57,065 nt of DNA. It comes from Sunxiuqinia dokdonensis (GTDB lineage: Bacteria > Bacteroidota > Bacteroidia > Bacteroidales > Prolixibacteraceae). The translations under genes were made by a program, and so were the position numbers. Positions 24,409 to 29,768 of this stretch are shown here, in pieces. Within the stretch, counting starts at the first letter, position 1; each line of letters begins with the position of its first letter. Under the pieces are notes generated by a model. The model saw only the letters and a program-made list of their open reading frames with translations, had not been told where the DNA came from and did not search any database. Where the stretch lies: contig NZ_LGIA01000170.1 in NCBI RefSeq assembly GCF_001270965.1, forward strand, positions 1-57,065, read 5' to 3'.

Positions 24409-25776
24409 ATGAAGGCGACTAAAAATGACAAGGATAAACTGAAGAATAAGTACAGCTATAAATGGGGTAATATAACCTCCGTTCTGCGGTGGAACAACCA
24501 GATGTCGTCAAAGCTATTTTCGAATATTTCTGTTTATTACAGCAATTACGGTCTAAATAATCTCTTTAGCTCCAGTTCTGATAAGGGGCTTGCTAAATTT
24601 CATGCTAAATCAGATATTAATGATCTGAGTATAATGGGCGATTTTGATTGGTTTGTTTCTTCTGCCTATACCCTTAGGTTTGGAGGCAAAACAGGTCTCA
24701 TGCATTTTGCACCTAACATTACACAGATAGCTGATGAAACTTCCAATACAAAGCTTAATGAAGATCAGAGAAACCAATCTTTCAGCTATGAAGCCTTTGT
24801 TGAAAATGAATTAAAGCTAAACAAGTTCAATATCAATTTTGGGCTTCGTGGTTCGATTTATGATACCGGGGATAAAGCCTATCAAAACATTGAGCCTCGC
24901 CTGGCAATAGGCTATCGCTCAGTTGGAGGGTTCTCTACGAATATTGCCTTTACAAGAATGTCTCAATTCATACATCTGCTTTCTAATTCATCGTTAGGTA
25001 TGCCAACCGACCTGTGGGTAGCTTCAACCGATAAAGTGAAGCCACAAACAAGCAATCAGGTTTCGGTTGGAGCAGAAATGAAGTTAGCTAACTATTCATT
25101 TGGAGTGGAAGCCTATCATAAGAAAATGAGCGATGTTATTAGATTTGATGAAGGAGCTGTCTTTCTTAGTACTCAGGAAGCAAAATGGGAAGAAAACATC
25201 CTGGATGGACAAGGAAGAGCTCATGGCGTTGAGTTTATGATAAAAAAGAATGCCGGAAGGTTTAAGGGAATGATATCCTATACATTAGCCTGGTCTGAAC
25301 GTCAATTTAACAAAGTTAACCAGGGGGAATGGTTTCCTCATGAACACGATAGACGACATGATATTTCTTTTTTGGGAGAGTACTCATTGTTTAAATCAAA
25401 GAATAGAGAGCAATCACTTTCTTTTGGCTTCATATTACAGTCGGGAAATAATATCAGTATGCCCGATATAGAATACGAAGGGATGTACTTGCTTGACATG
25501 CACAATCCAAATCTACAAAATCCGGATTGGCCCAAATCCCGGCAATCCTATGACTCTCCAAATAATTTCAAGATGCCTTTATTTCATCACCTGGATTTAA
25601 GTTACAATACCAAAAGGATAACTAGCAAGGGAAAAACTCACACCTGGTCTTTCTCAGTTTACAATGTCTACAACAAAATGAATCCATGGTACTACTACAA
25701 AGGCACAAGTGGAAAATTAAAGCAAGTTTCCATATTTCCCATCATTCCATCTATTGGTTATAAATATACATTCTAG
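24409..25776 (+). pseudogene. TonB-dependent receptor, C-terminal barrel fragment
   Basis: 455 codons resembling only the last half of a TonB-dependent outer-membrane receptor: alternating beta strands, a SWxxxRQFN-like strand, HxxDRRHD near residue 313, and a C-terminal aromatic end (YKYTF). There is no signal peptide, carboxypeptidase-like domain, TonB box or plug, and an in-frame stop at 24373 closes the frame upstream, so it cannot reach or gate the membrane. Its codons are markedly more A/T-rich (ATA, AGA, TTA) than the genes on either side. It looks like the remnant of a transferred gene whose 5' half was lost. Confidence 0.75.
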
Positions 25777-25885: not shown

Positions 25886-25915
25886 TTTGTTATTTAGAAA
25901 AATTATTTAGGTTTG
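25886..25915 (+). promoter_or_regulatory. Promoter of the methionine operon leader
   Basis: TTTG (25886-25889), 18-bp spacer, TAGGTTTG (25908-25915), a good match to the Bacteroidota consensus. Transcription should start near 25920, about 17 nt before the leader-peptide ATG and about 208 nt before the first structural gene. Confidence 0.7.
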
Positions 25916-25936
25916 CATCAACATTAAAGGCAACTG

Positions 25937-26032
25937 ATGGACAATTCCAGAACATACCAGCAACTATCTACAGCACTTTCCACAAGTGCTGCTGTCGTGT
26001 CTATGCCATCCATGTCTATGTGTATGCGATAG
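25937..26032 (+). CDS. Methionine-rich leader peptide (predicted attenuator peptide)
   Basis: 31 codons, ATG 25937 to TAG 26030-26032. The last nine residues read MPSMSMCMR, four Met codons (residues 23, 26, 28, 30) just before the stop. This is the arrangement of classical amino-acid leader peptides, where scarcity of the amino acid stalls the ribosome on the control codons. The ORF begins about 17 nt after a well-formed promoter, and the genes behind it make methionine precursors (MetY, MetA). The stop codon touches a stable hairpin. Peptide expression and function are inferred; no homologue was looked up. Confidence 0.6.
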   Translation: MDNSRTYQQLSTALSTSAAVVSMPSMSMCMR

Positions 26033-26092
26033 CCTTCAACCGGTATTGTATCGATGCGGATTGAAGGCGCCCCACAAAAAACTCCATTTTTT
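26032..26092 (+). promoter_or_regulatory. Attenuator-like hairpin of the methionine operon
   Basis: GCCTTCAACCG (26032-26042) pairs with CGG-a-TTGAAGGC (26057-26068), an 11-bp stem with one bulge. An alternative stem, CGATA (26027-26031) with TATCG (26049-26053), cannot coexist with it, so a ribosome stalled on the Met codons could change the fold. A T6 run lies at 26087-26092, but 18 nt after the stem, which is too far for a textbook terminator; control could instead act on translation of the next gene. Confidence 0.5.
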
Positions 26093-26127
26093 CACACTCA
26101 TTTTTCGTTTAATTTAATACTGAACTT

Positions 26128-27474
26128 ATGCCTGTGCATGTCGTCCGGCTTGGTGGAAATAACATCAATCAGCCCGCAATCATTCATTCTTTAACAAGCA
26201 TTCTGAAAAAGGTTGAAAAGAATCACATCCTGGTGGTTTCTGCTTCAGAAAATATTCAACGCATCCTGGTCTCCGGACTGGAACTACTGTGCATTTCGTC
26301 GCAAACCTACAGCGAACTGCTGGCCAACTTACGCGAGGAAGCGGCCTTGGTGGCTCAGCTGAATCAGACGCCGGAGCTTCCCGTGTTTGAACAAAGCCTG
26401 CTGCCACTGGAGCGCTTGCTGCAAGGTATTCAATACACCGGCGACTATTCGCTGGCCCTGCGCGATCAGGTGTTAAGCTATGCCGAAATCATGACCACGG
26501 CCTTGTTGCACGATCTGTTCAATCACGCCGGACTGGAAGCACAATTGCTGCTTCCTCAGGAACTTGGACTGATCGTGACCGATGAATACGGAAGTGCCAG
26601 CATTCTAAAGGCCCAGTCGGTTGAAAATATTCGGCCTCGCCGGTGGGAAAGGCTCAGTCTTATTCCTGGCTCCTATGGAATAACCCAAGCCGGCAAAATT
26701 GCCCGGATTGGTGATCGGGCCGCCGATTATACCGCGGCAGCGCTGGCCTCCATTTTGGATGTCGCGGAACTAGAGCTGTGGGAGATCAGTAAATCGTTTA
26801 AAACAGCTGACGACGAAGTGATTGCTGACGCTTCCTATATTGAAAACCTAACTTATGCCGAAGCTTCGGAATTGGCCTACTTTCACCATTCGTCCATTCA
26901 TCCGCGGATCGTAGAACCGCTGATTGAGCAACATATTCCCATTCGGGTTTTCGAGTTGCAGAATGGTGAAAAGATTCTCAAAACCACCATCAATTCTTCG
27001 CTTGGCGAGCAAACACAAACGATTAAAAGCGTGGCCCACAGCGATGATATTGCTATTTTGAAACTCAATGGGCCCGGCGTTGGTTTTAAACCGGGCATCC
27101 TTGCCACGGTGACCACAGCCTTTGCCAAACATCAAATCAACATCCGGTCAGTAATCACGGCGCAAACCAGCATCAACATCATCATTGGGAAACAAGATGT
27201 GGTGAAAGCCGAAAAAATCAGCCGACAGCTCGACCTGAGTTCAGTGAGCCAAATTGAGTTTGTTTCGAACATCTCACTCATTGCAATTGTTGGACATGGC
27301 ATGCAAACCAATCACGGTATTTCGGCCCAATTATTTTCAGCCGTTGCCAAGCACGAAATTAACGTGTTGCTAAGTGGTTCGGGAGCATCAGACCTGGTTA
27401 GCTACCTCATTGTAGAAGAGCAGGACAAGCAAAAAGCAGTCAACGAAATTCATAAAATATTTTTCAATTCTTAA
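26128..27474 (+). CDS. Aspartokinase homologue with degenerate kinase site and two ACT domains
   Basis: 448 residues aligned in order with monofunctional aspartokinases. The kinase motifs are eroded: KFGG[ST] is R7-LGGNN12, the GRGGSDYTA segment is G195-DRAADYTA, and the WTDVDG...ADPR loop is W218-EISKSFKTADDEV. The catalytic Lys, the Gly-rich site and the TD pair are therefore missing, while Asp200 and Tyr201 remain. The two C-terminal ACT domains (about 312-375 and 383-448) are well kept, including the GHGM...GISAQLFSAVAKHEINVL pattern. I infer a non-catalytic, amino-acid-sensing paralogue, although weak or altered activity cannot be excluded. First structural gene after the Met leader; metY follows after 18 bp. 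Confidence 0.8.
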   Translation: MPVHVVRLGGNNINQPAIIHSLTSILKKVEKNHILVVSASENIQRILVSGLELLCISSQTYSELLANLREEAALVAQLNQTPELPVFEQSLLPLERLLQGIQYTGDYSLALRDQVLSYAEIMTTALLHDLFNHAGLEAQLLLPQELGLIVTDEYGSASILKAQSVENIRPRRWERLSLIPGSYGITQAGKIARIGDRAADYTAAALASILDVAELELWEISKSFKTADDEVIADASYIENLTYAEASELAYFHHSSIHPRIVEPLIEQHIPIRVFELQNGEKILKTTINSSLGEQTQTIKSVAHSDDIAILKLNGPGVGFKPGILATVTTAFAKHQINIRSVITAQTSINIIIGKQDVVKAEKISRQLDLSSVSQIEFVSNISLIAIVGHGMQTNHGISAQLFSAVAKHEINVLLSGSGASDLVSYLIVEEQDKQKAVNEIHKIFFNS

Positions 27475-28794
<1,320 letters not shown>

Positions 28795-28850: not shown

Positions 28851-29768
28851 ATGCCATTAAATATACCAGACCAACTACCTGCCATTGAATTGCTTCGCGA
28901 AGAAAACATCTTCGTGATCGACAAAACAAAGGCCTCTCATCAGGATATCCGTCCGTTGAAAATTGTCATTCTGAACCTGATGCCTTTGAAAATATCGACG
29001 GAAACCGACTTGTTGCGTTTGCTGTCGAACACCCCGCTTCAGGTTGAAATTGATTTTTTGAAGATCAAGGGACACAAGCACAAAAACACCTCGGCAGAGC
29101 ACATGCGGGCGTTTTACACCACCTTCGACAAAATCAGGAAAAACAAGTACGATGGCATGATCATTACGGGTGCTCCGGTAGAACAACTTCCGTTTGAAGA
29201 AGTAACTTACTGGGACGAAATGAAGGAAATTCTCGATTGGTCCGCCCATCACGTGACCTCATCCTTGTTTATTTGCTGGGGATCGCAGGCGGCGCTGTAC
29301 CATTTTTATGGCATTCCGAAGTACAGCCTCGACAAAAAGATGTTTGGCGTGTTTAAGCACCGCGTGTCAGATAATAAAATACCAATTTTCAGAGGTTTTG
29401 ACGACGAGTATTTTGTACCGCATTCCCGCCATACCGAAATCAGAAAAGAGGATATTGACAAGATTCCTGAGCTGGAAATCATTTCCACTTCCGAAGATTC
29501 GGGCGTGAATATGCTGATGGCCAAAAACGGGCGGCAATTCTTTATTACAGGGCATTCGGAATATTCGCGCAACACGCTGAGCAATGAATATTTTCGCGAC
29601 CTGAAGAAAAAACTTCCAATCGAAGTTCCGAAGAATTATTTTCCGAATGACGATCCGGCTGAAAAACCAAACATGAAGTGGCGATCGGCAGCCAACCTGC
29701 TGTTCACCAACTGGCTGAATTACTACGTTTACCAGGAAACCCCGTATAATTTGGATGACATTGGGTAA
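28851..29768 (+). CDS. metA: Homoserine O-acetyltransferase (MetA family, acetyl-CoA type)
   Basis: 305 residues, close to E. coli MetA (309), and the key residues fall at the same numbers: nucleophile Cys142 in FICWGSQA, His235 and Glu237 in TGHSEYSR. Residue 111, which decides the acyl donor, is Glu (GAPVEQLPF); Glu111 enzymes use acetyl-CoA whereas Gly111 enzymes use succinyl-CoA. The product is therefore O-acetylhomoserine, the substrate of the MetY encoded just upstream. Last gene of the leader-aspartokinase-metY-metA operon. Confidence 0.93.

Follow-up and report, generated by a model that had tools for sequence, protein, structure and literature searches.

In the ribosome-mediated attenuators of the trp, his, leu, thr, ilv and phe operons, a short ORF follows the promoter, carries clustered codons for the end product of the pathway and lies before the cognate operon. 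TnaC-type arrest peptides also place the regulatory event near the stop codon of a leader, where TnaC stalls with tryptophan. Among the RNA-based sensors, T-boxes bind tRNA as RNA, and SAM-bound SAM-I riboswitches switch genes off. The attenuator specificities named in the accessible text of one paper are His, Leu, Thr, Trp, Ile/Val and Phe, and methionine is absent from them (PMC3766115). Strong clues for leader-peptide attenuation before amino-acid operons have been described in a flavobacterium, in an article whose main text does not contain the word "methionine" and in whose supplement a Met case could sit (PMC9723704). With regard to SAM sensing, the available portions of the respective papers describe that the 3' side of P1 contains the RBS in RBS-sequestering SAM-I riboswitches (PMC2258182), that uncharged initiator tRNA is a direct ligand of SAM-I in the Xanthomonas campestris met operon (PMC7270179), and that a SAM riboswitch and a T-box are combined in one leader (PMC12452182). 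None of the literature matches listed, for which titles and the beginnings of abstracts were covered (subscription papers and supplements lay outside), presented a Met leader peptide or a tandem of SAM-I and a leader peptide. Methionine would be an odd choice for a ribosome-read sensor, because every translation start needs Met.

Here, we analysed a stretch of 57,065 nt from Sunxiuqinia dokdonensis (contig NZ_LGIA01000170.1), which as a whole is called the window below. The original prediction had pointed to a Met-rich leader peptide before a methionine operon in this DNA, with a hairpin at the leader stop codon and an alternative stem competing with it. The features that we consider are as follows:

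25886 to 25915, + strand: promoter, which we take to be of the Bacteroidota type; TTTG at 25886-25889, an 18-nt spacer and TAGGTTTG at 25908-25915
25937 to 26032, + strand: leader ORF of 31 codons, MDNSRTYQQLSTALSTSAAVVSMPSMSMCMR followed by the stop; ATG at 25937, TAG at 26030-26032; Met-x-Met end also in relatives
26003 to 26026, + strand: cluster of four in-frame Met codons, ATG at 26003, 26012, 26018 and 26024
26032 to 26068, + strand: hairpin GCCTTCA...TGAAGGC with an upper stem; arms 26032-26038 and 26062-26068
26069 to 26127, + strand: spacer between the hairpin and lysC; a scan found no terminator in it
26128 to 27474, + strand: lysC-like aspartate kinase with ACT domains, first gene of the operon
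27493 to 28794, + strand: metY, O-acetylhomoserine sulfhydrylase family (TIGR01326, 665.8 bits; cut-off 495.1)
28851 to 29768, + strand: metA, homoserine O-acetyltransferase type (NF047918, 502.1 bits; cut-off 460.5)

The promoter TTTG-N18-TAGGTTTG and the 31-codon Met-rich ORF behind it can be read in the window sequence just as claimed. The four Met of the C-terminal end MPSMSMCMR, which is followed directly by the stop, and the hairpin at this stop are likewise present, and both are conserved in relatives; the leader stop codon and the hairpin share one base, 26032, at which the former ends and the latter begins. Profile matches agreed with the proposed MetY and MetA operon, in which the lysC-like kinase comes first. 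The Rfam covariance search of the leader interval returned no family at the gathering threshold, and hence no SAM riboswitch, a match to which had been named in advance as evidence against the prediction. At E-values up to 10, six sub-threshold matches were obtained in all, belonging to eukaryotic-type or small nucleolar RNA families. There was no match of the T-box covariance model in the window leader and none of SAM-I in the window's own genome, and no such leader was seen ahead of metH in this genome. Upstream of the promoter, a 455-codon ORF (24409-25776) matches the beta-barrel of TonB-dependent receptors. The gene may be truncated, since the match covers the barrel model only from position 63 onwards and the search listed no plug domain.

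Conservation was examined in the family Prolixibacteraceae, which NCBI places in Marinilabiliales and which belongs to Bacteroidales in the GTDB orders used by the genome collection. A kinase orthologue (at least 37% identity) was found in 80 of 100 genomes of the family, the rest having only the bifunctional-kinase paralogue near 27%. With G074 (a fragment) and G090 left out, 78 lysC orthologues were examined (30 + 40 + 8). Both ATG-NNN-ATG and the hairpin occur before 74 of them, three have a shorter leader ending SML together with the hairpin, and one has neither. Specifically, 69 of the first 70 upstream regions contain ATG-NNN-ATG, the stop-codon region and both stem arms, L048 being the sole orthologue of the 78 that lacks leader and hairpin. 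Five of the later eight regions have the full motif, and in the other three, all from genus g12, the same hairpin follows a leader of 15 codons that ends SML (in two of these three, with a single Met besides the start). A search of the class with the family model R1 gave no evidence of wider distribution: there were matches in 20 of 395 genomes, the window's included, and the 19 others, as well as one weak match elsewhere in the window's own genome, were counted as chance because they lie in or beside unrelated genes, judging by the printed ORFs.

The promoter is part of this conserved arrangement. In 62 of 66 loci (the set obtained with the stricter pattern), the element TAnnTTTG was found at a distance of 60-190 nt upstream of the leader stop, as compared with a background of 112 out of 1061 windows of 130 nt taken from 16 named loci. 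Its distance to the leader ATG is 20-26 nt in 51 of the 62, and the four loci without it are those of g7 (Prolixibacter), which carry a SAM-I aptamer. Counted from the first in-frame ATG after the promoter, the leaders of the 62 loci comprise 28-34 codons (49 loci), 37-40 codons (11) or 7-9 codons (2).

The Met codons are conserved in a manner that depends on the reading frame. In the last 15 codons of 69 leaders, ATG occurs 283 times in frame and only 11 and 4 times in the two other frames. Met is found at positions -4 and -2 in 68 leaders (in the remaining one, the last two Met are at -3 and -1). These last two Met codons belonged to the search pattern; the pattern did not include the Met at -9, present in 53 leaders, or the one at -6, present in 47. 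Meanwhile, the rest of the peptide mostly drifts, with little excess of changes at third codon positions. When the start and the last four codons were left out, 113 same-clade pairs, which share ancestry and are thus not independent, differed at codon positions 1, 2 and 3 in 656, 718 and 819 cases, respectively. A clearer third-position excess was seen in subgroup g11 (190, 270 and 331), where some protein constraint on the leader body is possible. The original prediction had asked whether the Met codons are kept while other codons drift, and had named a lack of conservation of Met codons or stems as evidence against it; in the upstream regions of relatives, the Met codons were indeed kept. 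Judging from these alignments, a drifting body with conserved Met codons, frame and promoter distance is the signature of a codon-reading leader peptide, here one for methionine. We consider it probable, with a likelihood of roughly 60%, that the leader is a ribosome-read methionine sensor, in which stalling of the ribosome at the leader Met codons would hold the stop-codon hairpin open.

The same end of the leader could also be read as an arrest peptide, in which nascent Met-x-Met-Arg/Gln would stall the ribosome at or near the stop together with a bound ligand (methionine, SAM or another), so that the Met would act as peptide. Most of the 69 leaders end in Arg (55) or Gln (9), leader length differs little within subgroups, and the stop codon overlaps the hairpin, all of which would fit such a peptide. 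However, the drifting body gives little hint of a constrained protein, wide conservation being limited to the final residues. Any of 12 different residues can stand between the last two Met (63 loci), and across 22 leaders of other families the distance from the end of the Met pair to the stop ranges from 0 to 27 nt. The stop itself is TAG in 64 leaders and TGA in one, but it has moved in four of the 69, being replaced by GAG in L019, CAG in L022 and L038 and CTG in L043, so that the frame enters the hairpin. Termination exactly at the stop position would therefore not be needed. On the whole, an arrest peptide seems unlikely.

With regard to the hairpin, its lower stem is near-invariant in sequence and more conserved than a plain stem requires, and in L025, where it has changed, it is still complementary (CAGTCTTCG/CGAAGACTG). 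All of the 62 distinct hairpins are more stable than the mean of their own shuffled-loop versions, and the window's own leader folds just mildly better than shuffled sequence (z -1.9). Alignments of six subgroups contain the hairpin in every case; additional stems specific to each lie downstream in g7 and g9, and no downstream pairing partner is common to the six. Two further candidates were dropped: a conserved downstream AGCG pairing with GCGCU before the stop (g9 and g11), which species with GCGAU do not follow, and a loop CGGU resembling the UGGN site of T-boxes (by eye), the bases of which vary among relatives. Several of L054-L069 (g7, g8 and g16) show by eye a second small hairpin after the first one, with arms that change and remain complementary and with no U-run.

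These data bear on the attenuation logic of the original prediction, of which the Met leader and the conserved hairpin stood, and the competing stems and termination at a U-run did not. A classical attenuator, in which mutually exclusive stems choose between terminator and antiterminator, can be drawn in the window with both stems. Nevertheless, the alternative CGATA/TATCG stem is found in only three of 66 loci, the window included, and T5 starting within 14 nt of the stem in just four of 65. The T6 run at 26087-26092 is indeed 18 nt 3' of the stem, as had been noted together with a doubt about termination, and this doubt agrees with the scan of the window, which found no intrinsic terminator. 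The subgroup folds, which have no common downstream partner, argue in the same direction. Upstream of lysC in L170 and L179, two SAM-I loci of other families, by contrast, a weak Met-codon hairpin is followed by seven T and overlapped by a longer alternative stem (by eye), so that a classical attenuator version of this leader may exist at these two loci. As far as its sequence indicates, the window leader is not a classical terminator/antiterminator attenuator, because the competing stem occurs in 3/66 loci and no U-run follows the hairpin, and we regard this mechanism as very unlikely for the leader in general.

It is also conceivable that leader translation and the hairpin set mRNA stability or lysC translation in a general way, e.g., as a guard against Rho or a nuclease, without methionine sensing and with the Met codons kept for some other reason. 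The strongly conserved hairpin sequence, the lack of a terminator in the scan and a G-poor spacer (absolute family averages, C 0.176 and G 0.091) would be compatible with this idea. Yet it is the Met codons that are kept while most of the peptide drifts, and leaders resembling this one also precede other genes for methionine or homocysteine. A role of this general kind thus appears quite improbable to us, and a methionine sensor read by the ribosome is still preferred.

SAM-I riboswitches (RF00162) were found in 40 of the 100 Prolixibacteraceae genomes. They precede the lysC operon in four g7 loci (64-66 bits) and in three g12 genomes; Prolixibacter therefore has both SAM-I and the leader at this operon, and the window keeps the leader alone. 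We read 25 of the 40 SAM-I places (among L278-L307), two of which are lysC loci. A short ORF after the aptamer is present in 17 of the 23 others: ten contain ..NMCM.. (e.g., ..GANMCMRQRF and ..SNMCMC) and seven have one Met at the end (e.g., ..SNSCMR). In the other six, a gene start comes directly after SAM-I (three loci) or there is no ATG in range (three loci). The gene behind most of the 23 begins like one tested protein, which proved to be HcyBio of homocysteine synthesis (PF01837, 491 bits).

Outside this family, SAM-I lies upstream in seven of eight kinase loci from other families of the order, and in four of the seven (L100 with ..EISMCMR, L104 with ..LPMGME, L105 and L106) a short ORF with Met-x-Met at its end comes next. 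A set unbiased with respect to the peptide was obtained without recourse to any Met motif, by reading all 61 places at which RF00162 matched in the order (54 of 198 genomes). In 41 of the 61 loci, the first ATG 4-25 nt after the aptamer opens an ORF of 12-69 codons; the remaining 14 loci apart from those with a direct gene start (see below) have no ORF, a very short one or one placed otherwise. ATG in the last 15 codons of the 41 ORFs is again mostly in frame (77 versus 6 and 4; Fisher 2e-26). Met-x-Met is present in 22 of them, from 18 families, and absent from 19, and several leaders behind SAM-I hold one Met or none. Simple sequence patterns recognised the first gene after the 22 as metY (10), lysC (4), metH (3) or metX (1), with four unrecognised, one of which is a HcyBio-type locus (L244).

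The position of the leader start relative to the aptamer is similarly constrained. In 39 of the 41 loci, 9-16 nt (about 12 nt) separate it from the aptamer, a spacing that mostly applies to Prolixibacter as well, and at six other SAM-I loci the metH start codon itself is 12-20 nt after the aptamer; in Prolixibacteraceae, a HcyBio-type start follows SAM-I at 7-12 nt in three loci. This agreement in distance suggests that the riboswitch probably gates translation of the leader. Among the 19 named kinase loci with SAM-I, 13 have short ORFs (ATG 32, 0 and 0 in the three frames), and nine of the 13 contain Met-x-Met. Four of the six without an ORF by the first-ATG rule (L141, L142, L152 and L182) do have a leader, and were probably missed since the aptamer end of the model overruns the leader start.

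Two controls were available. SAM-I occurs in 209 of 295 genomes from other orders of the class, and the 30 best-scoring of these loci, a small control, gave five short ORFs with ATG counts of 2, 1 and 1. One random short ORF upstream of the aptamer at each of 56 loci gave 18, 9 and 17. T6 within 200 nt of SAM-I was found in 21 of the 30 other-order loci versus 21 of 59 in the set from the order.

Not every locus follows the pattern. No leader was seen before metY in L089, from another family, and the Marinilabiliaceae leaders (..FRMPGRA) contain just one Met towards their end and are weak for codon counting, as are the leaders with a single Met or none in g12 and behind SAM-I. Thirteen-codon ORFs like MMQLFYFRMPGWA follow SAM-I in L151, L154, L155, L156 and L160 (Carboxylicivirga, Plebeiobacterium or Bacteroidales); a single Met lies close to their end, and so does a GC-rich repeat. 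The short ORF behind SAM-I in L222 ends SISSCCCFCCC and is a possible cysteine-codon leader.

RNA structure beside the Met codons also recurs, as a tendency, in leaders behind SAM-I. Mean folding z in these leaders was -1.71 for the 60-nt segment that surrounds the end of the first Met-x-Met (n=31; Wilcoxon 2e-7), 19 of the 31 being below -1; the mean was -0.40 for the next 60 nt (9/31 below -1) and -0.15 for the preceding 60 nt (n=30). No clear structure was seen at the Met pair in 12 of the 31 (z > -1). The recurring structure is not one hairpin, because hairpin sequences differ between families.

This difference also weighs on another explanation, in which the leader region would be an RNA element bound by a protein or an RNA, with the AUG triplets as an RNA motif and the ORF incidental. 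Within the family, AUGCGNUAGCCUUC is highly conserved at the nucleotide level, as such an element would be. On the other hand, neither the frame preference of ATG (283 : 11 : 4 in the family and 77 : 6 : 4 behind SAM-I) nor the recurring start position would be expected, and the same Met pattern accompanies quite different hairpin sequences in other families. An incidental ORF is hardly credible in our view.

Returning to the methionine sensor, the ORF, its frame, the Met codons, the promoter distance and the hairpin are conserved, and from them we infer translation of the leader, stalling at the Met codons and the direction of the response. Transcription would begin a few nucleotides downstream of the -7 element, with a ribosome soon entering the 31-codon leader. 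If charged Met-tRNA is scarce, this ribosome would slow or stall on the Met codons just before the stop. A ribosome with the Met codon at -2 in its A site covers roughly the next dozen bases, and with a footprint of this size it should reach the 5' arm of the stem. The leading edge of the stalled ribosome would thereby keep the hairpin open, and lysC-metY-metA would be expressed. If methionine is plentiful, the ribosome would finish and depart, the hairpin would fold and expression of the operon would fall. A caveat for any such sensor is that Met starvation would slow initiation too, since initiation uses Met. The readout is the least certain part. Because the family has neither a common partner structure nor a U-run, the sequence does not reveal how stalling would be coupled to expression; Rho-aided premature transcription termination would be favoured, considering that no U-run follows the hairpin and that the spacer is poor in G.

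In the tandem loci, the riboswitch would control whether the leader is translated, and low SAM and low Met-tRNA would thereby be sensed in series. Since SAM-I shuts genes off and faces the leader start in the tandem, leader translation should favour expression, which is in line with the direction proposed above. For the order as a whole, the chances seem to us evenly balanced that this is a two-input series gate, in which low SAM would admit the ribosome and low Met-tRNA would hold it, turning the methionine genes on, with most sampled Prolixibacteraceae keeping the leader without the riboswitch at lysC-metY-metA.

If the tandem works as proposed, a riboswitch would decide whether a sensor peptide is translated and the peptide would read tRNA charging, i.e., two textbook devices would be joined in one leader. 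It would then offer a clean system for studying how a cell tells methionine shortage from SAM shortage, and would represent a control layer in this order without an Rfam family (the leader part matched none).

Compared with ribosome-mediated attenuators, the predicted leader has the same short ORF after the promoter and the same clustering of end-product codons before the cognate operon, its translation being predicted here. It differs in that the amino acid is Met, that the Met codons alternate with others, and that there is no U-run terminator and no conserved competing stem. The Met-codon leader may work like a leader-peptide attenuator; we do not assign it to that class, because the searches for a terminator and a competing stem were negative. 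It shares with TnaC-type peptides an event near the stop, whereas its nascent chain is little conserved beyond the Met pattern and the final Arg/Gln. SAM-I itself is absent from the window, and Prolixibacter and members of 18 families of the order carry it immediately before a leader of this kind; in the tandem the start codon that it faces belongs to a leader peptide and not to an enzyme. By analogy of function, the nearest relatives are the leaders that combine a SAM riboswitch with a T-box and the Xanthomonas SAM-I that binds uncharged initiator tRNA. The former, as described in the available text, also pair a SAM sensor with a tRNA sensor, although no T-box match was found here. As far as the available text on Xanthomonas campestris goes, both there and here one leader RNA would report on SAM and methionine, and the part that we propose for the present case is a translated Met-codon leader.
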